A DNA stretch of 46,914 nucleotides, taken from Acidimicrobiia bacterium. GTDB lineage: Bacteria > Actinomycetota > Acidimicrobiia > IMCC26256 > PALSA-555. The first letter of the stretch is position 1, and the number at the start of each line of letters is the position of its first letter. The DNA is taken from the NCBI GenBank assembly GCA_035948415.1, contig DASZJD010000063.1, forward strand, positions 1 to 46,914, given 5' to 3'. The translations under genes were made by a program, and so were the position numbers. Under the pieces are notes generated by a model. That model was given only the letters and a program-made list of their open reading frames with translations, was not told the origin of the DNA and did not search any database. Shown here one piece after another: positions 9,271 to 44,407 of the stretch.

Positions 9271-9454
9271 CACCGGTCGGGCAACACCCGGGACGGGCTG
9301 GACCGACTGACACCAGCCGAGCGCGCGGCCGGGGACGGCGACGCCGCGCCTCGTGTGCCCCCGCGAGTGCGCACGACCGGGCGAGTGCTGGCGTAATTCT
9401 CCGGCCGGTATCGTCATAGCCTTCGAGCGGTCCCTGACTGGGCACGGGAGGGAC

Positions 9455-11440
9455 GTGGGGGAGAACCCGCAACTGCGGTACGAGCCCGCGCTCGACGGCC
9501 TGCGAGCACTCGCGGTCGGCGCCGTCTTCGCCTACCACCTGAGCTACGGCTGGGCGTCCGGCGGGTTTCTCGGCGTCGACGCGTTCTTCGTCCTGTCGGG
9601 GTTCCTCATCACGTCGCTGCTCCTCGCGGAGTGGAGACGGTCGGGGACGATCGCCTTCCGATCGTTCTGGATCCGCCGCGCCCGGCGACTCCTGCCCGCG
9701 CTCCTGCTCGTCCTCGTCGCCGTCGCCATCTACGCGGCGACGAGCGTCCCGTCCGATCAGCTCGGCCAGCTGCGCGGTGACGGCCTGGCGACCCTTTTCT
9801 ACGGCGCGAACTGGCGGTTCATCGCGACCGGGCAGTCGTACTTCACCCTCTTCACGACCGCGTCGCCGCTCCGCCACATGTGGTCGCTCGCGATCGAGGA
9901 GCAGTTCTACCTGGTCTGGCCCCTCGTGGCGTTCGTGTGCCTCCGGCTCGTCCGCGGCCGCCGCTGGCTGCTCGCGGCGGTCTGCGGGGTGGGAGCGGTC
10001 GCGTCGAGCCTCGTCATGGCGTGGGTCTACTCGCCGGCCAACCCTTCTCGCGCCTACTACGGCACCGACAGTCGGGCCCAGCTGCTGCTGATCGGCGGGC
10101 TGCTGGCGGTGGCCCTGGCCCGCTGGTCGCCGCGCGCCGCCACGACCCGTGCCGCGGTCAGCTGCGTCGGCGTCGCCGGCATCGCGTACTGCTTCTGGGC
10201 CTGGGCCGAGATCTCCGACACCGCGTCGTGGATGTATCGCGGCGGCTACTTCGTGTTCGGGATCGCGGTCGCCGCCGTCATCACCTCGGTGGTCCAGCCC
10301 GACCGGCCGCGGTTCCTGCTCCGCCGCGCGTTGTCGCTCGCACCCGTGGTCTGGGTCGGACGCGTCTCCTACGGGCTGTACCTCTGGCACTGGCCCGTGA
10401 TCGTGTACGTGACGCCGGAACGAACCGGGCTCGCCGGGTGGCGGCTGGCCCTCCTGCGCGTCGGGCTCACGGTGGCGATCGCGACGGTTTCGTTCTATCT
10501 CGTCGAGCTGCCGATCCGGCGCGGCCGGCTGCTGGCGGGGCGCCGCCTCGGGTTCGCGCTCCCGACCGCGTTCGTCGGCGCCGGGGTGGCGGTGGTGCTG
10601 GCCACTTCGAGCGCCACGCCCCTGCCGCCGTACCTGCGAGGTCCCACCAACAACAACGTGCTGGCGGCCGCCAGCGGCCAGCAGTCGTTGCTGCCGTCAC
10701 GAGGCGCCGCTCGCACGCTGACCCCGACGGCGCCCCACCGGATCCTGCTCATGGGGGACTCGCTGGCGGTGAGCCTGCTCCCGGGCCTCGAGCACGCCGC
10801 CAGCAGCCGCGGCCTCGAGATCGCCTCGGGCGCCTTCGACGGGTGCGGGCTCATGACCGGCTCGCCGCTCGACCCGAAGGGCCAGCTCTATCCGTGGAGC
10901 GACGCCTGCAGCAACGCCCTCCCGTTCATCGAGCACCGCGCCATCTTCCTCAGCCGACCCGACCTGGTGATCTGGCTCAGCGGAGCCTGGGACGAGCGGG
11001 ACCGGTTCGTGGACGGCAAGCTGGTCCGGCTCGGGTCGCCCCGAGGCGACCGGATCTACTCCGGGCTCGTCGACGCGGCGGTGCACCGGCTCACGTCCGG
11101 CGGGGCGCGAATCGTGTTCGTGACCACCGCGCCCGAGCCCCGAGGAGCGCCTGACCTCACGACGGACCCGGTCCGCAATCGCCGCACCACCCGTCTCGAC
11201 GCGGTGCTCCGGCGGTACGCGGCGACGCACCGGATCGAGCTCGTGGACCTCAGCCCCATCGTCTGCCCGAAGGGTCCGCCGTGCCCGGCGGTCGTCGACC
11301 ACCTGCAGTTGCGACCGGACGGATACCACTTCGACGACGCCAGCGCTCGATGGGTCGCCCAGCGCCTGCTGCCTCGCCTGGTCAAGACGACGGCTCCCCC
11401 GGCGCGGACCCGCTCCGTCGGTACGGCCACGTCGCGCTGA
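9455..11440 (+). CDS. AT3 acyltransferase with C-terminal SGNH domain (OafB-like)
   Basis: A 661-residue inner-membrane O-acyltransferase. The acyltransferase-3 domain (about residues 8-370) begins YEPALDGLRALAV, has the conserved His28 in FAYHLSYGW, then GVDAFFVLSGFLIT, RRARRLLPALLL, WSLAIEEQFYLVWPL and SYGLYLWHWPV. A periplasmic SGNH-type domain (about 425-661) follows, with Ser436 in MGDSLAV and the Asp622/His625 pair in RPDGYHF. Such proteins move acetyl or other acyl groups across the membrane onto surface polysaccharide. The GTG at 9455 sits just after GGGAGGGA (9446-9453), though the spacing is short. It converges on the related gene at 11468-13405. The glycan modified is not known. 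Confidence 0.9.
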   Translation: MGENPQLRYEPALDGLRALAVGAVFAYHLSYGWASGGFLGVDAFFVLSGFLITSLLLAEWRRSGTIAFRSFWIRRARRLLPALLLVLVAVAIYAATSVPSDQLGQLRGDGLATLFYGANWRFIATGQSYFTLFTTASPLRHMWSLAIEEQFYLVWPLVAFVCLRLVRGRRWLLAAVCGVGAVASSLVMAWVYSPANPSRAYYGTDSRAQLLLIGGLLAVALARWSPRAATTRAAVSCVGVAGIAYCFWAWAEISDTASWMYRGGYFVFGIAVAAVITSVVQPDRPRFLLRRALSLAPVVWVGRVSYGLYLWHWPVIVYVTPERTGLAGWRLALLRVGLTVAIATVSFYLVELPIRRGRLLAGRRLGFALPTAFVGAGVAVVLATSSATPLPPYLRGPTNNNVLAAASGQQSLLPSRGAARTLTPTAPHRILLMGDSLAVSLLPGLEHAASSRGLEIASGAFDGCGLMTGSPLDPKGQLYPWSDACSNALPFIEHRAIFLSRPDLVIWLSGAWDERDRFVDGKLVRLGSPRGDRIYSGLVDAAVHRLTSGGARIVFVTTAPEPRGAPDLTTDPVRNRRTTRLDAVLRRYAATHRIELVDLSPIVCPKGPPCPAVVDHLQLRPDGYHFDDASARWVAQRLLPRLVKTTAPPARTRSVGTATSR

Positions 11441-17395: not shown

Positions 17396-18784
17396 ATGGC
17401 TGGGGGCGCCGGCGAGCGGAGTGACGACAGCGCGTCGCGACGCGGTCCGCGCTGGTTTTGGTGGGCGCTGACGACCGTCGGCGTCGCCGCGCTCGGGACG
17501 CGCGTCGGCTACGTCCTGATCTCGCGCGCCAACCGCACGTTCGGCGGCGACTCGTACTTCTACCACGCCGGTGCCAACCTGCTGGCGAGCGGCCACGGGT
17601 TCATCGAGCCGTTCCTGTACCACAACGGCCAGGTCGCGCAGGCCGCCGAGCACCCGCCCCTCTACCTCGTGTACCTCTCGATCCCGTCGGCGCTCGGCAT
17701 GACGAGCACGCTCACGCACCTGCTGTGGTCGTGCGTGCTCGGGACGGCCACGGTGGTCGTCGTGGGACTCATCGGTCGCGAGGTGCTGGGTCCGCGGGTC
17801 GGGATCATCGCCGCGGCCATCGCGGCGCTGTACCCGAACGTATGGGTCGCGGACGGGTCGCTGCAGGCGGAGACGGCGGCCATGTTCATGACCGCCCTCA
17901 CGGTGCTCTTCGCCTACCGCTACCTGCGGCGCCCGAGCTGGCCGTGGCTCGCCGCCGCCGGTGCGGCCGCGGGGGCGGCCTCGCTGGCGCGCTCCGAGCT
18001 CATCCTGCTCGTGCCCTTCGTCGTCGCGCCGCTGGCGCTCTTGACCCGCACGCGGAGCTTCCGCCAGCAGCTCGAGTGGCTGGCGGCGGCCGGGCTGGCG
18101 ACGCTGATCGTGATCGGCCCGTGGATCGGCTACAACCTGAATCGCTTCCGCCACCCGGTGTATCTCAGCGTGCAGTACCCGGCGCTGCTCGCGTCGGCGA
18201 ACTGCGACACCACCTACTACGGCCAGCTCCTCGGGTACTTCTCGGTGGCGTGTGCCGCCGCCGACGCGACCCGTGAGCACGTCGCCGGGGACCAGTCGCA
18301 GCAGGCGATCGGCTTCCAGCACGCCGCCGTCACGTACGTCCGGCACCACGAGGGCCGCCTGCCGGTCGTCGTCGCGGCGCGCCTCGGGCGCATCGTCGAG
18401 GCCTTCCGACCGGGCCAGAACATCCGCCTCCGCGAGTTCCTCGACGGCATCGAGAGCCCGGTGGCGAACGCCGCCCTCGTCACCTACTACGCCCTCGCGC
18501 TCCTCTCGGTCGCCGGTGCGGTCGTCCTGCGGCGACGTCGCGTCACCGGCTACCCGCTCCTGGCCCCGATCGCGGTGGTGCTGATCACGGTGGCGCTGTC
18601 GTACGGGAACACGCGCTTCCGAGCCCCCGCCGAGGTCATGCTGGCCGTCCTCGCCGCGGTGGCGATCGACGCCCTCGTTTCCCGGTTCGCGAGCGCGCGG
18701 GCCGGTGGGGGAGCGGTGCCGGCGGAGCCGGAGCCCGTGGGCGCCGCCGCTCCCGTGGGCGCCGGCGGGCCTCGGGAGCCGTGA
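17396..18784 (+). CDS. GT-C (ArnT/PMT-like) membrane glycosyltransferase
   Basis: A 462-residue protein with about ten helices. The first loop contains GGDSYFYHAGANLLASGHGF, where the Asp is the likely catalytic base of GT39/GT83-type enzymes, followed by AAEHPPLYLVYLSIP. It shares LWSCVLGTATV, YPNVW, SLARSELILLVP, YNLNRFRHPVYLS, an NCDTTYYG loop, RLPVVVAARLGRI and the NTRFRAPAEV segment before the last helix with the proteins at 3-959 and 41218-44127. Unlike the 41218 protein it ends soon after the last helix with an Ala/Pro/Gly tail and has no hydrolase domain. ATG start. The gene ends at a strong hairpin shared with the convergent epimerase gene. Confidence 0.85.
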   Translation: MAGGAGERSDDSASRRGPRWFWWALTTVGVAALGTRVGYVLISRANRTFGGDSYFYHAGANLLASGHGFIEPFLYHNGQVAQAAEHPPLYLVYLSIPSALGMTSTLTHLLWSCVLGTATVVVVGLIGREVLGPRVGIIAAAIAALYPNVWVADGSLQAETAAMFMTALTVLFAYRYLRRPSWPWLAAAGAAAGAASLARSELILLVPFVVAPLALLTRTRSFRQQLEWLAAAGLATLIVIGPWIGYNLNRFRHPVYLSVQYPALLASANCDTTYYGQLLGYFSVACAAADATREHVAGDQSQQAIGFQHAAVTYVRHHEGRLPVVVAARLGRIVEAFRPGQNIRLREFLDGIESPVANAALVTYYALALLSVAGAVVLRRRRVTGYPLLAPIAVVLITVALSYGNTRFRAPAEVMLAVLAAVAIDALVSRFASARAGGGAVPAEPEPVGAAAPVGAGGPREP

Positions 18785-27200: not shown

Positions 27201-28694
27201 CCGGTCGGTCAGGCCCGGCGTGATCGGCTCGATGGTGTCGCCCCAGCGGTAGGCGGAGAAGTCGGCGCCCGGCAGCTCGAGGATCCGGGTGTTGTGCGAT
27301 CCCTTGTCGAGCTTCGCGATGGCGCGGGTCCAGTACGCCGGCAGCGTCTCGTTCCGCTGGAGGTTCTTGCCGTAGTAGGTGCCGTTCCACAGCGCGGGCA
27401 GGTTCACGATCACGAGCACGCCGAGCAGCGCGCAGGTCAGGAGCCCCACCGCGCCGAGGCCGCGGTCGGCCAGCCGCCGCGCCACGACGTTCGCACCGAC
27501 CCCGAGCAGCACCGCGAAGCCGAGCACGACGACGGGCCCGGCGCGCCCGACGCTGCGCAGCGCCAGCCCGACCGTCGAGCCCTCCCCGAACGCCTTCAGC
27601 ACCGCGCCGACCGGCGACGGGTCGTCGTACGGGTGCGCGCCGACGGCGACGACCACGCCGACGACGACCAGCCCGATGAAGTAGATGCGGTGCCGCCAGC
27701 GGACGAACGCCGCCGCCGCCATGGCCAGCACCGGGACCCCGTAGCCGACCACGATCAGCCAGCGCCGCAGCGTGTAGTCGATCGTGGACTCGATCCAGGG
27801 CCCCAGCTTGTCGCCGCCGTAGAAGAACCAGTAGCCGAGGCCGCGCTGGATCTCGCCGGCCTGGCCCGCGGTCGACACCGTCTTGATCGTCTCCGTGTAC
27901 TTCAGGACGTTGAGCCCGTACCCGGCCTGGAGCGTCAAGCCCGTGACCCACCAGAGGGACGCCAGCAGCGTCAGCAGCGTGATCTTCCCGGCGGTGCGCA
28001 GCGCCCGCGACAGCGAGACCTCGCGGGAGACCCACACCGCGTACCCGAACCACAGCATCGGCGCCAGCAGCACGAACAGCAGGACGGTGGCCACGACGCT
28101 GCCGGCCAGCTGGACCACGATGGCGAAGATGGCGGGGTAGCGCCAGCCGCCCTCGCGGAGCGCCCGGATCACGATGCCGACCAGCCACGGCAGCGACGCC
28201 CACGCCACGAGCTGGATCGACAGCCGCGACGCGTACTGCAGGAGGTACGGGCTCAGCATGAACGCGAGCGCGGCGACGACGACCCCCGGGCCGCGGACGT
28301 GCAGGGTGCGGAGCAGGAACAGCACGCCGAGCCCGGCGGCGAAGATGATCGAGCCCAGCCACAGCCGCTGCGCCACCCACGCGGGCACGCCGGCGGTCTC
28401 GAGGACCCAGTAGAACGGGCCGGCCGGGAACAGGTAGCCGATGTTCTCGTGGGTGACGGTGCCGAAGGCGGTGTTGCCCTGCCACAGGTAGGGCGCGCGG
28501 GCCAGCAGCCGGCCCGGGTCGAGGTAGAAGTACTGCTTCGTGTCGGCGACGACGCGGCCGGGCGACGTCCGCAGCAGCGGCACGTAGGCCAGCACCGCCA
28601 GCAGCGAGTAGCCGACCGCCCGCAGCCCGCGGCTGCTGGTCGGCGTCGGCGGTGCCGCGGCCCGTTCCGCGACGGCGACCGCCGGCGCGCTCAT
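24249..28694 (-). CDS. aftD: AftD-like alpha-(1->3)-arabinofuranosyltransferase
   Basis: A 1,481-residue GT-C enzyme, the usual size for mycobacterial AftD, which adds arabinofuranose from decaprenyl-phosphoarabinose to arabinan outside the membrane. The N-terminal membrane half begins with a catalytic-loop pattern, Asp51 in ADTKQYFYLDP, then LWQGNTAFGTVTHENIGYLFPAGPFYWV and VAQRLWLGSI, all close to the AftD/DUF3367 signature. Two galactose-binding or discoidin-like modules follow (about residues 740-870 and 985-1110, each with a DGxxxTAW motif), then more beta-rich sequence and C-terminal helices (about 1325-1470). The ATG at 28694 overlaps the stop of the GT4 gene (ATGA). The family call is strong; that arabinose is the sugar here is inference, since the rest of the arabinogalactan pathway is not in view. 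Confidence 0.85.
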   Translation of the reverse strand: MSAPAVAVAERAAAPPTPTSSRGLRAVGYSLLAVLAYVPLLRTSPGRVVADTKQYFYLDPGRLLARAPYLWQGNTAFGTVTHENIGYLFPAGPFYWVLETAGVPAWVAQRLWLGSIIFAAGLGVLFLLRTLHVRGPGVVVAALAFMLSPYLLQYASRLSIQLVAWASLPWLVGIVIRALREGGWRYPAIFAIVVQLAGSVVATVLLFVLLAPMLWFGYAVWVSREVSLSRALRTAGKITLLTLLASLWWVTGLTLQAGYGLNVLKYTETIKTVSTAGQAGEIQRGLGYWFFYGGDKLGPWIESTIDYTLRRWLIVVGYGVPVLAMAAAAFVRWRHRIYFIGLVVVGVVVAVGAHPYDDPSPVGAVLKAFGEGSTVGLALRSVGRAGPVVVLGFAVLLGVGANVVARRLADRGLGAVGLLTCALLGVLVIVNLPALWNGTYYGKNLQRNETLPAYWTRAIAKLDKGSHNTRILELPGADFSAYRWGDTIEPITPGLTDRPYAARELIPFGSAPSANLLDAFDGRLQVGLLEPASVAPIARLLGVGDLVLRNDLQVDRFDLARPKDTSVLFTPTPTGLQPPTGFGHGLSPPLTLPLLDARELALPAGTPDPAPVVDYPVQSPRPIARADAAGPSVLVSGDGEGLIDLAQSRLLTGQELVQYSASFAGDPAGLRRAVDGNSVLVVTDTNRKRAQRWDNVNYKLGYTERPGEQPLVTDTNDNQLNVFPGAGENAATVMEQRGVTVSATGYGSSARYLPADRPARAFDGDLSTAWTVGAFDAVDGQRLRADLDRPITTGTVNLVQPLTGPRDRYITRATLRFSDRGQAAGAPVTVGLGPASRTAAGQTVTFPRRHFSRLEITVDADNLGPQPTYPHASGVGFAEIRLHDDAAPTRDVHVDEVVRMPTDLVSSPAARSTSHPLVYEMTRLRTVLAPPNTAEEETSLVRSFTVPSARDFGLVGTARLDLGAPDPALDAALGIPGASAGGVTATASEHLTTTALARASSALDGNPATAWTTQVGDPTGQWIDVRLAHPTTVDHLDLQVVADGRHSVPTQLQIDAGGQTRTVSVPPVPDQPAENATVSAPVRFPALTGADVRVTITAVRPVDTTEYYTNLPTPLPVGIAELGIPGVQRPPLPATLPGDCRADLLTVDGRPYPVRVVGSAATAASGGTATVESCNPSGGAAAPLRLGAGAHELRATPGASTGINLDGLVLASGIGGAGVALDAPAGSTAAPAAAAPRVHVTGNGETTIHARVQHPTGPFWLVLGESFNSGWRATVNGHDLGAPKLVDGISNGWRVNPKDGRPLSVTFTWTPQRRIWIALAISAVTMVLCTALALRPRRPRIPVDAAHVDRPLAFRSPFGSSGSPPSRRAVVSTTLAVAIASSLLVTWWMGLVVGAVTLAVLLRPPLRWLLTVGAPAALAAAGAYVVVQQTRHLYPAVFEWPTFFDAVHVVALLAVLLLAADAVVELVRSRRRGDWGPDADG

Positions 28695-29872
28695 CGACGA
28701 GCGGACCGGGCGCGGAAGCGGATCGCCTCGGCTGCCAGTACCTCCAGCACGCCGAGTGCCGACGCCTCCCACTGCATGTTCGAGGCGCGGGCGACGGCGC
28801 CGGCCCCGAGGCGAGCCCGCAGGTCCGGGTCGCCGATCAGCTGGTCGAGCGCGCCGACGAGCTCGTCGCGGCCCTGGACCAGGATCCCGCTGCGACCGTC
28901 CTCGACCGCGTCGAGGTGCCCGGCGATGCGCGTCGCCACCGCGGGTGTGCCGCACGCGGCCGCCTCGGTGATGCTCATGCCCCAGCCCTCACGCGCCGAC
29001 GTGCTGGCCAGCACCCACGCCCGCCGGTAGAGGTCGACGACGGCCTCGTCGGCGATGCGGCCGGGCAGCCGGATCCAGTCCTCGGCCCGGCTGGCGTGGA
29101 GCTGGGCCTCGAGGTCGTCCCGCATGTAGCCGTCCCCGGCGATCACCGCCTCGAGGTCCGGGTGCCGGCGCTTCAGCGCCACGAGCGCGTCGATGAGCAG
29201 CTCGAAGCGCTTGACCGGGACGAGGCGGCCGACGGCGATGACGAGCGGGGTCGGTGACTTCGCGCCGCCTGGCGTGTACCGCGGGTGCACGCCGGGGTGG
29301 ACGACGGTCACCCGGCTCGGCCGGAACCCCATCGCCTGGACCAGCTCCTGCTTGCTCGACTCCGACGGCGTGACGATCGGGACGTGCCGGTAGAAGGGCG
29401 GCGCCAGCTGCGATTCGATGAAGCTCCCGAGCGCGGCGAGGCGCGGCGGCAGCGTCATCTGCCACATCTCGGCGTGGAGATGGTGGATGCAGGTGATGTG
29501 GGGGGTGCGGGCCCACACCGGCGAGAAGAACGGCATCCCGTTCCAGACCTCGACGAGCCCGTCCCGGCCGCCGTGCCAGCCGAGCATCTCGCTGACGGCG
29601 GCGCGGGGGAACACGAGGTAGCGGCCGGCCTTGCGGATCACCCGGTACCCGTCCCGCCAGGCCACGGGGGGCCGCCCGGCCGCGAACGAGGCCCGCATCG
29701 TCACCTCGAGGCCGGCCTCGGCCCAGTACTTGGCGAGGTTCGACGCCGAGATCTCCGACCCGCCCGCCTCGGGGTCGTCGAGGTCCCGCCAGGCCAGCAT
29801 GCTCACGCGGCGGAGCCCGGCCTCGGCCGCGACGCTGCCGATCTTGGCGATGGTGGCGTCGTGATCGGTCAT
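28691..29872 (-). CDS. GT4 family glycosyltransferase
   Basis: A 393-residue GT-B enzyme with retaining GT4 features. The N-terminal half has DPEAGGSEISASNLAKYWAEAG, the glycine-rich acceptor loop, and HHLHAEMW. The C-terminal half has VAVGRLVPVKRFELLIDAL, AGDGYM, and the donor-site STSAREGWGMSITEAAACGTPAVAT with the EX7E acidic pair. It should work in the cytoplasm and use a nucleotide sugar. It is the first gene of a pair with the AftD-like gene, overlapping by 4 bp, so the two enzymes likely act on the same polymer. The ATG at 29872 is used; a GTG directly before it is an alternative. Confidence 0.88.
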   Translation of the reverse strand: MTDHDATIAKIGSVAAEAGLRRVSMLAWRDLDDPEAGGSEISASNLAKYWAEAGLEVTMRASFAAGRPPVAWRDGYRVIRKAGRYLVFPRAAVSEMLGWHGGRDGLVEVWNGMPFFSPVWARTPHITCIHHLHAEMWQMTLPPRLAALGSFIESQLAPPFYRHVPIVTPSESSKQELVQAMGFRPSRVTVVHPGVHPRYTPGGAKSPTPLVIAVGRLVPVKRFELLIDALVALKRRHPDLEAVIAGDGYMRDDLEAQLHASRAEDWIRLPGRIADEAVVDLYRRAWVLASTSAREGWGMSITEAAACGTPAVATRIAGHLDAVEDGRSGILVQGRDELVGALDQLIGDPDLRARLGAGAVARASNMQWEASALGVLEVLAAEAIRFRARSARR

Positions 29873-30070
29873 CACAGGTGGCGACGCAGTCGGGTCCGGG
29901 CCCCTCCGACCGTTCGAGCCCAGCCCCAGGACGGCGGGCGCAGCCTACGCGACCGGGTCGTCCGCCGACCGGTCGGGCGACGCCGGCGCGACCGGTGTCG
30001 GGCCCCCCGGCCTTTGGCCCGGCGCCGTCGCAGGCCCCAGAATGACCGGATCGAAGGACCGTCCGAGCCC

Positions 30071-35846: not shown

Positions 35847-36959
35847 TCAGCAGGGGGCGGTGCGGAGCGCGGGCGGCCCGAGGGCGCTCTGGTTCGCGAT
35901 CGTGGCCTGGCCGACGCCGGTGACCGGGACGCCGCCGGACCCGGAGGACCGGGTGGACTGGCCGGGGATCACGACCTTGCCGCCGGACACCGAGGGGTTG
36001 TTCCCGATCCCGGTGCCGCCGAGCCGGGTGATCATCGGGTCGGCGTCCGGCTCCTGGAGGTAGAGCACGCTCTGGCCCTGCTGGTCCGGGCCCTCGGCCG
36101 AGGGCACGGTCCGGAACTCGACGTGCTTGGAATCGTTGGGGTTCACGCCGAGGAACGTGTCCACCAGCGTCAGCACGTCGTTGCGGGAGAGGCTGGCGTC
36201 GATGGTCAGGTTCTCGAGCACCCGGTTGACGATGGCGTTGGCGGTGAACGGGTTGTCGCGGGCCTTGGAGGCGGCCAGGCTCCCGAGCCGGCGGGTGAAG
36301 TCCTGCTGGCGGGCGATGCGGTCGATGTCGGGGACGGCGTCGGCGGTGAGCCAGGCCTGCCGGCGCTGGCTGTAGTAGGTGAGCGTCCGGGAGCGCACGT
36401 ACTGCAGGGCGTCGTAGCCGGTGAAGCTCTTGCAGCCGGCGAGCGGTGAGTAGAAGCCGGCCTTGTCGTCTCGGGCCGGGTACGGGACATAGACGGGCAC
36501 GGTCCCGATCGCGTCGACCACGCCCTTGAAGCCCTTGTAGTCGACCTGCACGTAGTGGTTGATGTCGATCCCAAAGTCGGCCTTCATGGTGTCGATGACC
36601 TTCTGGGGCCCGCCGTTGTTGGCCGCGTTGATCTTGGCCATCCCTTGGCCCGGTATGCGGACCCAGAGGTCCCGCGGGAACGAGACGATGAGCGCGTGGC
36701 GCTGGCCGGGATCGACTCGGACCACCCACATGGTGTCCGAGAGGTTGTCGAGGGCTTGACTGTCGGCGCCCAAGACGAGGAAGTTCAAGGGCCCGCTCGA
36801 CGCGACTGCGGTGTGGACGCGCACGCGCTTGGCGGCTGCCAGCTTCACGTCGATCACGTAGTTGACGGCGACGACGGCCCCGACCATCGCCAGCGACGCG
36901 ACAACGAGTGCGATGAGGAGCCTGCCGCCGAACGCGCGCACCGCGCTGCGTCGACGCAT
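35847..36959 (-). CDS. LytR-CpsA-Psr (LCP) family cell-wall glycopolymer ligase
   Basis: A 370-residue membrane-anchored enzyme that attaches lipid-linked glycopolymer to peptidoglycan outside the cell. One membrane helix (about residues 13-35) precedes the LCP domain. Conserved marks are FLVLGADSQ, SDTMWVVRVDP, SFPRDLWV (with the Arg/Asp pair that binds pyrophosphate), KINAANNGGPQKVIDTM, VDYKGFKGVVDAIG and YVRSRT, where a further Arg contacts the lipid phosphate. The C-terminal tail is Ser/Gly-rich and ends in Cys. It would act last in the pathway served by the glycosyltransferases here. A possible leaderless promoter lies just upstream. Confidence 0.93.
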   Translation of the reverse strand: MRRRSAVRAFGGRLLIALVVASLAMVGAVVAVNYVIDVKLAAAKRVRVHTAVASSGPLNFLVLGADSQALDNLSDTMWVVRVDPGQRHALIVSFPRDLWVRIPGQGMAKINAANNGGPQKVIDTMKADFGIDINHYVQVDYKGFKGVVDAIGTVPVYVPYPARDDKAGFYSPLAGCKSFTGYDALQYVRSRTLTYYSQRRQAWLTADAVPDIDRIARQQDFTRRLGSLAASKARDNPFTANAIVNRVLENLTIDASLSRNDVLTLVDTFLGVNPNDSKHVEFRTVPSAEGPDQQGQSVLYLQEPDADPMITRLGGTGIGNNPSVSGGKVVIPGQSTRSSGSGGVPVTGVGQATIANQSALGPPALRTAPC

Positions 36960-41217: not shown

Positions 41218-44127
41218 GTGCGCGACGCGCTCCTCCGAATGCGCGACTCTCGGTTGTTCAACGACGGGTGGCGCCTCGCGCCCGTCACCGCGGCGCGGCC
41301 GACCGACACCCGACCCCCGTCGACGACGGGGCCGAAGCCACCCTCGCTCGCGGCTCAGCGCCGGTGGTACGTCCTGCTCGGCCTCACGATGCTGCTCGGC
41401 CTCGCCATCCGAGTCGCCTACATCCTGATCTTCAAGCGTCACTTCGTCGTCTCCGGTGACGCGTTCTACTACCACCACGGGGCGAACCTGCTCGTCGACG
41501 GACACGGGTTCATCGCGCCCGACCCGTTCATCAAGCACCAGCACACCCTCGCCGCCGCCCAGCACCCGCCCGGCTACCTGCTCGCGCTCGCCGTGCCGTC
41601 GGCCTTCGGCCTTCGGACCGTGCTCGAGCATCAGCTCTGGTCCTGCGTGCTGGGCACCGCCACGGTCGGCGTGGTCGGGCTCGTCGGCAAGACGATCGCC
41701 AATCGGCGGGTGGGCCTGATCGCGGCGTTGCTCGCCGCGATCTACCCCAACCTGTGGCTCAACGACTCGCTGGTGATGTCCGAGACGCTGATCCTGCTCA
41801 CCACCGCCGTCGTCGTGCTGGCGGCCTACAAGCTCTGGCAGCGCCCCCGTCCCGCCATCGCGGCTGGCCTCGGCGCGGCGATTGGCGCCGCCGCGCTGAC
41901 CCGTGCCGAGTCGATCCTGCTCGTCCCGCTCCTCGCGATCCCGCTGGCCTGCCTGCTCCGCCGCTTCGGGTGGCGCCGACGCCTGCAGCTCGCAGGGATC
42001 AGCATTGCGGCCACCGCGGTCGTGCTCGCCCCCTGGGTCGGTTACAACCTCACCCGCTTCGACCACCCAGTCACGGTGTCCACGAACCTCGGCATGACGC
42101 TGCGGGTGGGGAACTGCGACCAGACCTACAGCGGCCCCAAAATCGGCTACTGGGCGTTCCAGTGCCTGCACCAGACGAACCCTGGGCACGGCGATCTCTC
42201 CTCCCAGGAGATCGTCTACCGGCACGCCGCCGTCGATTACATCAACTCGCACGTGAGCTCCGTGCCCGCCGTCGTCCTCGCTCGGCTCGGTCGCACCTGG
42301 GCCCTCTTCCGACCAACCCAGCAGGTCCGGCTCGACGCCTTCCTCGAGTGGCGCGAACTCTGGGCCGCCCAGACTGGGCTGGGCATCTACTACCTGCTGC
42401 TCGTCGCGTCGATCGGCGGTGTCGTCTTGCTGCGCCGGCGGCGGGTGCCGGTGCTGCCGCTCCTCGCGCCAGCGCTGACCGTCACCATCGCGGTCGCGAT
42501 CACGGTCGGTGAGACCCGTCTCCGGGCGCCAGCCGAGATCTCGCTGGTCCTGCTGGCGGCGGTGGCGCTCGAGTTCGCCTGGCTCGATCTCCGCGCGCGC
42601 CTGCGGGTGGCGGGGGCCAGGGTCGTCGAGGAGCAGCTGCCCCTCGTACCGGACGCGCCGAGCCCGACCGCAGGCGCCGCCGTTGGACCAACCACCACGG
42701 CGACGAGCAGCGGGTACGGAGCGGACCGGCCCCCGCGGACGACGCTCCAGGCGACGTGGCGTGAGCTCCGCGCGCGCGTTCCCAAGGCGCGTGCCCGGAT
42801 CGCCGAGGAGCAGCTGCCCCTCGTACCAGACGCGCCGAGCGCGACCCCGGGCGCCGCCGTCGGGCGAACCATGGGTACGGGCGACGGGAACGGGGCGAAG
42901 CGACCGACGGCGACGCTCAAAGCGACGGTCGGGCGCACGGCCGGGGCGTGGCGGGAATCGGCGTCGGCGTTCTGGGGCCGACTCACTGGCGACGTCTCGA
43001 GGTCGCGGGCCTGGTCGACGCTGACGAGCTCGCCGCAGTGGAAGCGGCTCCGGAGCCGGTCCGGTCGCGTGTTCCTCCTCGTCGTCGCGGTCGGCACCGC
43101 CATCGCCATCGGCACCGCGATCGTGGTCAGCTCGGGGTCGACGGCCGCGGCGCCACCGGCAGCGCGCACGAAGTTCCCAACCCGGATCGTGAAGCTGCCC
43201 GGGGGGCGGTCGCCGAAGGCGAACCCGAAGGCCCCGGCCCGGATCGTCGACCCGAGCCAGGACAGGCCCAACCCGTTCGTGCTGGTGACCGGCGGGAAGT
43301 ACTACCTGTACTCGAGCCAGTCGGGAACGTTCAAGTCACCCAACGTTCCGGTCTGGGTCTCGACCGACTTCACGCACTGGACCTCGGTCAAGGAGACGCT
43401 GCCGAAGCTGCCGAACTGGGCGACCTGGGGCTCGACCTGGGCTCCCGACGTCCGACGGGTGAACGGCCGGTACGTCATGTACTTCACAGCCCTCGTGAAG
43501 GGTCGGTCACCGGCGACCCGATGCATTGGGAACGCAACTGCGTCCAGTCCGACCGGGCCGTTCAAGCCCGTCCAGCGCATGCTCGTCTGCCAGGTGCTGC
43601 ATCGGGGAACGATCGACCCACGCACCTTCGTGGATACCGACGGCACGCTCTGGCTGCACTTCAAGTCCGACGACAACGCCAACGCCCATGGGGACAGCCA
43701 CACCGCGATCTACGCCCAGCGCTTGACGAGCGACGGACTCAGGCTGACCGGCTCCCGGAGGGTCATTCTCAGGGCCGACCAGGCCTGGGAAGGGCGGATC
43801 GTCGAGGCTCCTCAGATGGTGCTGGCCAACGGCCACTACTGGATGTTCTACTCCGGGAACTGGTACAACCAGCCGAAGTACGCCATCGGCGTGGCCCGAT
43901 GCCAGGGTCCCGCGGGCCCGTGCACCAAGCCGCCCCGCTCGCGGCCCTTCATCGGATCGAACGCCCAGGGGCGGGGGCCCGGCGAGTCTTCCCTGTTCAC
44001 CGACGGCAACGGGCTCTGGATCGTGTATGGCCCTCTGGCTGTCGAAGGTAGAGAACCCACGAGGCGACCGGTGGCCCTCGCGCACATCGTCTTCAACGGC
44101 ATCGGGCCGAACCTGGGCGCGTTCTGA
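41218..44127 (+). CDS. Fusion: GT-C membrane glycosyltransferase + GH43-like propeller
   Basis: A 969-residue protein of two parts. Residues about 50-455 are a GT39/ArnT-like GT-C domain with ten or so helices; Asp81 in SGDAFYYHHGANLLVDGHGF is the likely catalytic base, and YPNLW, YNLTRFDHPV and the NCDQTYSG loop match 3-959 and 17396-18784. A linker (about 459-576) made of a tandem 59-residue repeat follows, then one helix (about 617-640), then a GH43-like five-bladed propeller (about 680-969) that must lie outside the membrane: NPFVLVTGGKYYLYSS, Asp744 in WAPDV, Asp800 in TIDPRTF, Glu863 in VEAPQM. Asn685 stands where GH43 enzymes usually have the base Asp. GTG start at 41218; ATG 41239 is an alternative. 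A domain of this type cuts or binds arabinan or xylan. Confidence 0.85.
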   Translation: MRDALLRMRDSRLFNDGWRLAPVTAARPTDTRPPSTTGPKPPSLAAQRRWYVLLGLTMLLGLAIRVAYILIFKRHFVVSGDAFYYHHGANLLVDGHGFIAPDPFIKHQHTLAAAQHPPGYLLALAVPSAFGLRTVLEHQLWSCVLGTATVGVVGLVGKTIANRRVGLIAALLAAIYPNLWLNDSLVMSETLILLTTAVVVLAAYKLWQRPRPAIAAGLGAAIGAAALTRAESILLVPLLAIPLACLLRRFGWRRRLQLAGISIAATAVVLAPWVGYNLTRFDHPVTVSTNLGMTLRVGNCDQTYSGPKIGYWAFQCLHQTNPGHGDLSSQEIVYRHAAVDYINSHVSSVPAVVLARLGRTWALFRPTQQVRLDAFLEWRELWAAQTGLGIYYLLLVASIGGVVLLRRRRVPVLPLLAPALTVTIAVAITVGETRLRAPAEISLVLLAAVALEFAWLDLRARLRVAGARVVEEQLPLVPDAPSPTAGAAVGPTTTATSSGYGADRPPRTTLQATWRELRARVPKARARIAEEQLPLVPDAPSATPGAAVGRTMGTGDGNGAKRPTATLKATVGRTAGAWRESASAFWGRLTGDVSRSRAWSTLTSSPQWKRLRSRSGRVFLLVVAVGTAIAIGTAIVVSSGSTAAAPPAARTKFPTRIVKLPGGRSPKANPKAPARIVDPSQDRPNPFVLVTGGKYYLYSSQSGTFKSPNVPVWVSTDFTHWTSVKETLPKLPNWATWGSTWAPDVRRVNGRYVMYFTALVKGRSPATRCIGNATASSPTGPFKPVQRMLVCQVLHRGTIDPRTFVDTDGTLWLHFKSDDNANAHGDSHTAIYAQRLTSDGLRLTGSRRVILRADQAWEGRIVEAPQMVLANGHYWMFYSGNWYNQPKYAIGVARCQGPAGPCTKPPRSRPFIGSNAQGRGPGESSLFTDGNGLWIVYGPLAVEGREPTRRPVALAHIVFNGIGPNLGAF
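42589..42942 (+). repeat. In-frame 2 x 177 bp tandem duplication in the fusion linker
   Basis: Two units (42589-42765 and 42766-42942) both begin CTCCGCGCGCG and carry GAGGAGCAGCTGCCCCTCGT at the same offset of 177 bp (42628 and 42805). Each encodes 59 residues with EEQLPLVPDAPS and an acidic/Thr-rich middle. The units have diverged at scattered sites, mostly outside the EEQLPLVPDAPS core. Confidence 0.85.
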
Positions 44128-44332: not shown

Positions 44333-44407
44333 GGGCGGTTAGCTCAGGGGAAGAGCACTTCCTTGACGCGGAAGGGGTCAGAGGTTCAAATCCTCTACCG
44401 CCCACCA
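44333..44407 (+). tRNA. tRNA-Val (GAC)
   Basis: Clover-leaf by eye: acceptor GGGCGGT (44333-44339) with ACCGCCC (44397-44403), D-stem GCTC/GAGC, anticodon stem CTTCC/GGAAG with loop TTGACGC, anticodon GAC at 44365-44367, T-stem AGAGG/CCTCT with loop TTCAAAT. The CCA end is encoded (44405-44407). It lies 205 bp after the GT-C/GH43 gene and marks a change in gene content. A TACAAT at 44177-44182 may be a promoter -10 for it, but no well-spaced -35 was found. Confidence 0.95.

Follow-up and report, generated by a model that had tools for sequence, protein, structure and literature searches.

An in-frame fusion of a GT-C-type membrane transferase with an anchored GH43-fold propeller in an uncultured Acidimicrobiia bacterium

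The window analyzed here (46,914 nucleotides) is one whole contig (C63) of the 3.4-Mb draft genome of an uncultured Acidimicrobiia bacterium, assembled in 133 contigs. It harbors an open reading frame of 969 codons that encodes an N-terminal PMT_2 transferase and a C-terminal GH43 propeller (Table 1). Pfam PMT_2 matched residues 117–271 with 29.7 bits (curated cut-off 26.1) and Glyco_hydro_43 matched residues 680–960 with 160.3 bits (curated cut-off 32.2). This is in agreement with the sequence-only reading, which had proposed one uninterrupted frame for both domains, and the fusion frame is confirmed in this one draft genome. Also as noted in that reading, the two PMT_2 paralogues in the window terminate before any propeller domain. 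The GC3 along the fusion frame was 0.83–0.95, except in short stretches close to its end (0.80–0.83), and across the linker between the halves it was 0.83–0.93. On shuffling, the linker was open in ∼11% of cases (chance probability ∼0.11); hence, openness of the linker is by itself weak support for the frame. The common frame, the GC3, and a repeat within the linker add to this support. Promoter and terminator scans found nothing. A tRNA-Val(GAC) gene lies shortly downstream of the fusion gene (44333–44407, +), and a separate gene of the window (9353–11440, +) joins an SGNH domain to Acyltransferase-3, an architecture that is already known.

Table 1. Positions in the window of the fusion gene, its parts, and the related or glycan-associated genes.
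Feature	Position	Strand	Basis or remark
PMT_2 paralogue lacking a propeller, N-terminus truncated at the contig start	3..959	+	Sequence comparison
PMT_2 paralogue without propeller	17396..18784	+	48% identical over 395 aa
AftD homologue (GT-C_AftD and F5/8 type C/CBM_AftD), up to 1568 aa	24249..28955	-	Domain search, GT-C_AftD E 3e-87
GT4-type glycosyltransferase	28691..29875	-	Domain search
LCP (LytR-CpsA-Psr) glycopolymer ligase	35847..36959	-	Domain search
Whole fusion ORF	41218..44127	+	GTG start, 969 aa, no internal stop
GT-C-type (PMT_2) transferase half, residues ∼50–460	41365..42597	+	Pfam, conserved residues
Tandem repeat copy 1, begins within last TM helix of transferase	42566..42694	+	Repeat comparison
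Linker, residues about 461–612, ∼150 residues, Ala/Arg/Thr/Pro-rich, predicted cytoplasmic	42598..43053	+	Sequence
Tandem repeat copy 2, in frame, 79% identical to copy 1	42743..42871	+	Repeat comparison
Extra transmembrane helix, residues 613–643	43054..43146	+	Homologous to N-terminal anchor of standalone GH43 paralogues
GH43-fold five-bladed propeller, residues 680–960; N685 at catalytic-base position, D800 and E863 kept	43255..44097	+	Pfam, AF2, alignments

The PMT_2 family is broader than CAZy GT39. The PMT_2 score of a paralogue of the fusion protein was 59 bits. Hydropathy analysis of the transferase half showed ∼10 hydrophobic helices at residues 49–460, and an acidic residue in the first extracytoplasmic loop, D81, was invariant in 26 homologues; many transmembrane helices and such a residue are features expected of a GT-C enzyme. 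Comparison of the 26 family members further revealed the invariant residues P117-P118, D183, E189, R229, E231, W273, N277, C300, C316, R434, and R436, all of which are present in the fusion protein, as is the nearly invariant H116. The transferase half appears intact owing to the retention of all these family-invariant residues. Its structural model (pLDDT 46.3) was not good enough to be searched against known folds, and no sequence match for this half was found in the PDB. Another locus in which PMT_2 shares a frame with other domains was observed in a different genome (L062:2006-5938; G020 C59), where Acyl_transf_3, PMT_2, and DUF2142 membrane domains lie in a single frame of >1311 aa.

Tertiary structure prediction of the propeller half with AF2 (18 sequences) gave a pLDDT of 80.8, and VIA-align placed the solved GH43 structure 4qqs as the top match of the model (Z 34.0, rmsd 2.5, 286 aligned). 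The modeled domain is thus confirmed as a five-bladed β-propeller of the GH43 fold. In direct alignment, N685 falls opposite the general-base Asp of 4qqs and 3kst; in the arabinanase alignments, this position is the residue adjoining the aligned stretch. D800 occupies the position of the pKa-modulating Asp and E863 that of the acid Glu in alignments to solved GH43 structures, and their arabinanase counterparts are the Asp of the IDP motif and the Glu of the EAP motif (3cu9; D147 and E201 by numbering). The propeller hence resembles GH43 arabinanases and their relatives (4qqs, 3kst, and AbnB) in fold and in two of the three active-site residues, and differs from them in the change of the base Asp to Asn, the membrane anchor, and the GT partner. 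GH43 enzymes normally no longer hydrolyze once the base is lost. Since the catalytic general-base Asp of GH43 hydrolases is absent, the domain is termed GH43-fold and is not filed as a GH43 hydrolase. Among the homologues, the base position is mostly Asp; Asn was found in seven of the tested sequences, six of which form one clade spanning several families (support 88/89) and retain the Glu and the second Asp.

The genome also encodes two standalone proteins of 366 and 419 aa, each composed of one N-terminal transmembrane helix and a propeller. They share 72% and 65% identity with the fused propeller, and the closer one is alike over the anchor too. Approximately 30 related Acidimicrobiia loci nearly always show the same form of anchor plus propeller, which indicates that a whole transferase and a whole anchored propeller protein were joined. 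That the propeller half is an entire pre-existing membrane-anchored protein with standalone paralogues had been missed by the sequence-only reading. The dN/dS between the fused propeller and its nearest standalone paralogue was ∼0.25, which indicates that the fused propeller is under constraint. A scan of named genomes with the single propeller sequence gave no match, and one with an alignment gave 29 loci; the propeller-family loci in named records all belong to actinobacterial metagenome-assembled genomes, mostly Acidimicrobiia. Anchored standalone proteins with Asn at the base position, belonging to the conserved clade, are found at L075, L082, and L071 as well as at L072 and L073 of the same genome. 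A second GH43 group in the same order (L060, L061, L086, L088, and similar loci) has a propeller preceded by a transmembrane helix and a segment resembling a coiled coil. In the loci examined, no standalone GH43 homologue adjoined a member of this PMT_2 family, a point against the explanation preferred below. At L050 and L051, the long open frames enclosing further GT or GH43 matches were rejected as GC-rich spurious extensions by codon-position GC.

Homologues of the linker were not found elsewhere. It contains most of a tandem repeat of two 129-nt copies, in frame and with a spacing of 177 nt (79% identity); the dN/dS of the repeat was ∼0.56 on 42 codons only, which are too few to decide translation of the linker. 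An extra helix between the halves had been claimed from the sequence, and it is present, with Arg/Lys on its N-side; further Arg/Lys runs lie at residues 406–409 and behind the last GT helix. By the positive-inside rule, the linker is probably cytoplasmic, and the propeller and the active side of the transferase are probably outside. The earlier proposal of a propeller outside beside the active site therefore holds by charge: the two domains share one frame, and the membrane side of the propeller is read from the charge pattern only.

The sequence-only reading had held that absence of the fusion from all close relatives would count against it, and this absence was observed for the exact fusion among the matches listed from overlapping sets of genomes (61 relatives, and 58, 395, and 396 genomes at the level of order, class, and phylum, respectively); as only the best matches were listed, a very distant fusion might escape. 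The exact fusion was also absent from the 29 named-genome loci. Among plasmid records, no match spanned both halves, the best ones being ordinary GH43 genes, and a literature search found no description of a GT-C–GH43 fusion. A related propeller was found behind an 11-helix protein in Acidimicrobiaceae bog_763 (PLRX01000061.1; L102:2643-5057, also L135; P0005). The partner is a distant homologue of a Wzy_C (O-antigen ligase family) protein, and the base Asp of this propeller is intact. The two fused propellers fall in different supported clades, and the fusions are hence independent. In both proteins, an anchored-type GH43 domain forms the C-terminal part, behind a polytopic membrane protein with kinship to enzymes of glycan assembly; they differ in the O-antigen-ligase-like partner, the intact base, and the separate tree origin of the bog_763 protein. 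The bog_763 fusion supports the general principle of the earlier interpretation.

The AftD homologue in the window had gone unnoticed in the sequence-only reading. AftD was found in 11 of 12 genomes of the taxonomic family, and in four genomes of that family (G001 C89, G005 C16, G007 C6, and G009 C61), a member of this PMT_2 family lies ∼2 kb from AftD. The glycan handled at this locus is probably furanose-containing owing to the presence of an AftD homologue in the same contig. The Pfam model for EmbC found no match in the genome, and a candidate for DprE1 obtained through PF04030 (ALO family) proved to be a generic FAD-linked oxidoreductase and was rejected; for these two reasons, a D-arabinan pathway was not established. 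No work on envelope arabinan in this lineage was found in the literature.

Fusion of a GT-C core with a carbohydrate-binding module has precedents. Mycobacterial EmbC consists of a membrane GT-C core and an extracytoplasmic C-terminal carbohydrate domain that binds acceptor arabinan and is needed for acceptor binding (PMC3044687). AftD and GT136 ORF12 are likewise GT-C furanosyltransferases with appended binding modules (PMC11127046), but they differ from the fusion in GT family and in module fold. The module of EmbC is a lectin-like CBM, whereas that of the fusion is a GH43 propeller of five blades, preceded by a predicted cytoplasmic linker and a helix of its own; the added domain is thus not of the lectin-like or discoidin CBM fold of the EmbC/AftD kind. 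On the best-supported reading, a GT-C enzyme with an added carbohydrate-binding module would be an already known arrangement, and the substitution of a GH43-fold propeller for a lectin-type CBM would be the new part.

The explanation given about an even chance is a GT-C transferase of EmbC/AftD-like mode of action whose extracytoplasmic module for glycan binding is a recruited propeller. A GT-C transferase dependent on polyprenyl-phosphate sugars would have gained, in frame at its C-terminal end, a whole type II membrane-anchored GH43-fold protein, and both halves would be expressed as one protein. The transferase would add sugar on the outer side of the membrane, and the propeller, tethered by its own helix and the flexible cytoplasmic linker, would lie on the same side, where it may bind the acceptor or product glycan and hold it near the transferase. 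Glycan binding is likelier than cutting because the catalytic base is Asn. The earlier interpretation thus stands with respect to the fusion, the helix, and, by charge, the outward propeller; of its pairing of a builder with a trimmer or reader, Asn685 favors the reader and weakens the trimmer.

Alternatively, the propeller could have kept its hydrolase function and trim or edit the polymer for length control, with Asn685 as an imidic-acid base or with another residue in that role. In GH43_24, which has no base Asp, Gln is used instead, and the GH45 enzyme PcCel45A uses Asn (PMC7939473), so that hydrolytic activity could persist here; Glu863 and Asp800 are moreover conserved throughout the Asn clade. 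In the cyclic β-1,2-glucan synthase Cgs, a transferase and a GH-family domain (GT84–GH94) are joined for length control in one membrane protein (PMC10901819); the soluble domains of Cgs are cytoplasmic and its GH94 is an active phosphorylase, whereas the propeller of the fusion has no base Asp and a predicted location outside. Mutation of the base Asp, which most homologues outside the clade keep, argues against activity as far as it can be read from the sequence, and a trimming role is considered unlikely.

It is equally conceivable that the fusion arose by chance, through loss of the stop between two neighbors once the end of the transferase gene had been tandemly duplicated, with the propeller keeping its old separate job. 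The exact fusion is known from one genome only among the matches listed, its linker has no homologue and holds an in-frame duplication of the transferase tail, and standalone copies are still present in the genome. Purifying selection on the propeller, the intact GT motifs, and the independent origin of an analogous fusion speak against this course of events, and the linker, given the 21% divergence between its repeat copies, is not a very recent product; a neutral origin is judged improbable. An error of assembly or base calling in the draft, by which two neighboring genes lost the stop or frameshift separating them, would fit a single contig with a linker that ∼11% of shuffles leave open, and translation from the internal ATG of residue 552 would yield a protein of ∼418 aa, the size of a standalone GH43 protein. 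As both halves share one frame with a high GC3 across the linker, and a diverged repeat cannot be an assembly duplicate, such an error is very unlikely.

Beyond this locus, it may tentatively be proposed, as a rather doubtful generalization, that membrane-anchored GH43-fold propellers recurrently serve as an accessory to extracytoplasmic glycan assembly in Acidimicrobiia, that fusion has recruited them at least twice (with a GT-C transferase and with an O-antigen-ligase-like protein as partners), and that the Asn-base subclade acts as a length-setting glycan sensor or editor. If the GT-C–propeller fusion is functional, the fold of a degradative enzyme would have been turned into the acceptor-holding part of an envelope sugar transferase, and the protein would offer a direct route to testing how extracytoplasmic transferases hold their polymer and control its length. 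For the anchored GH43 proteins of Acidimicrobiia, which would otherwise be annotated as plant-polymer degraders, it would also suggest a role in biosynthesis.
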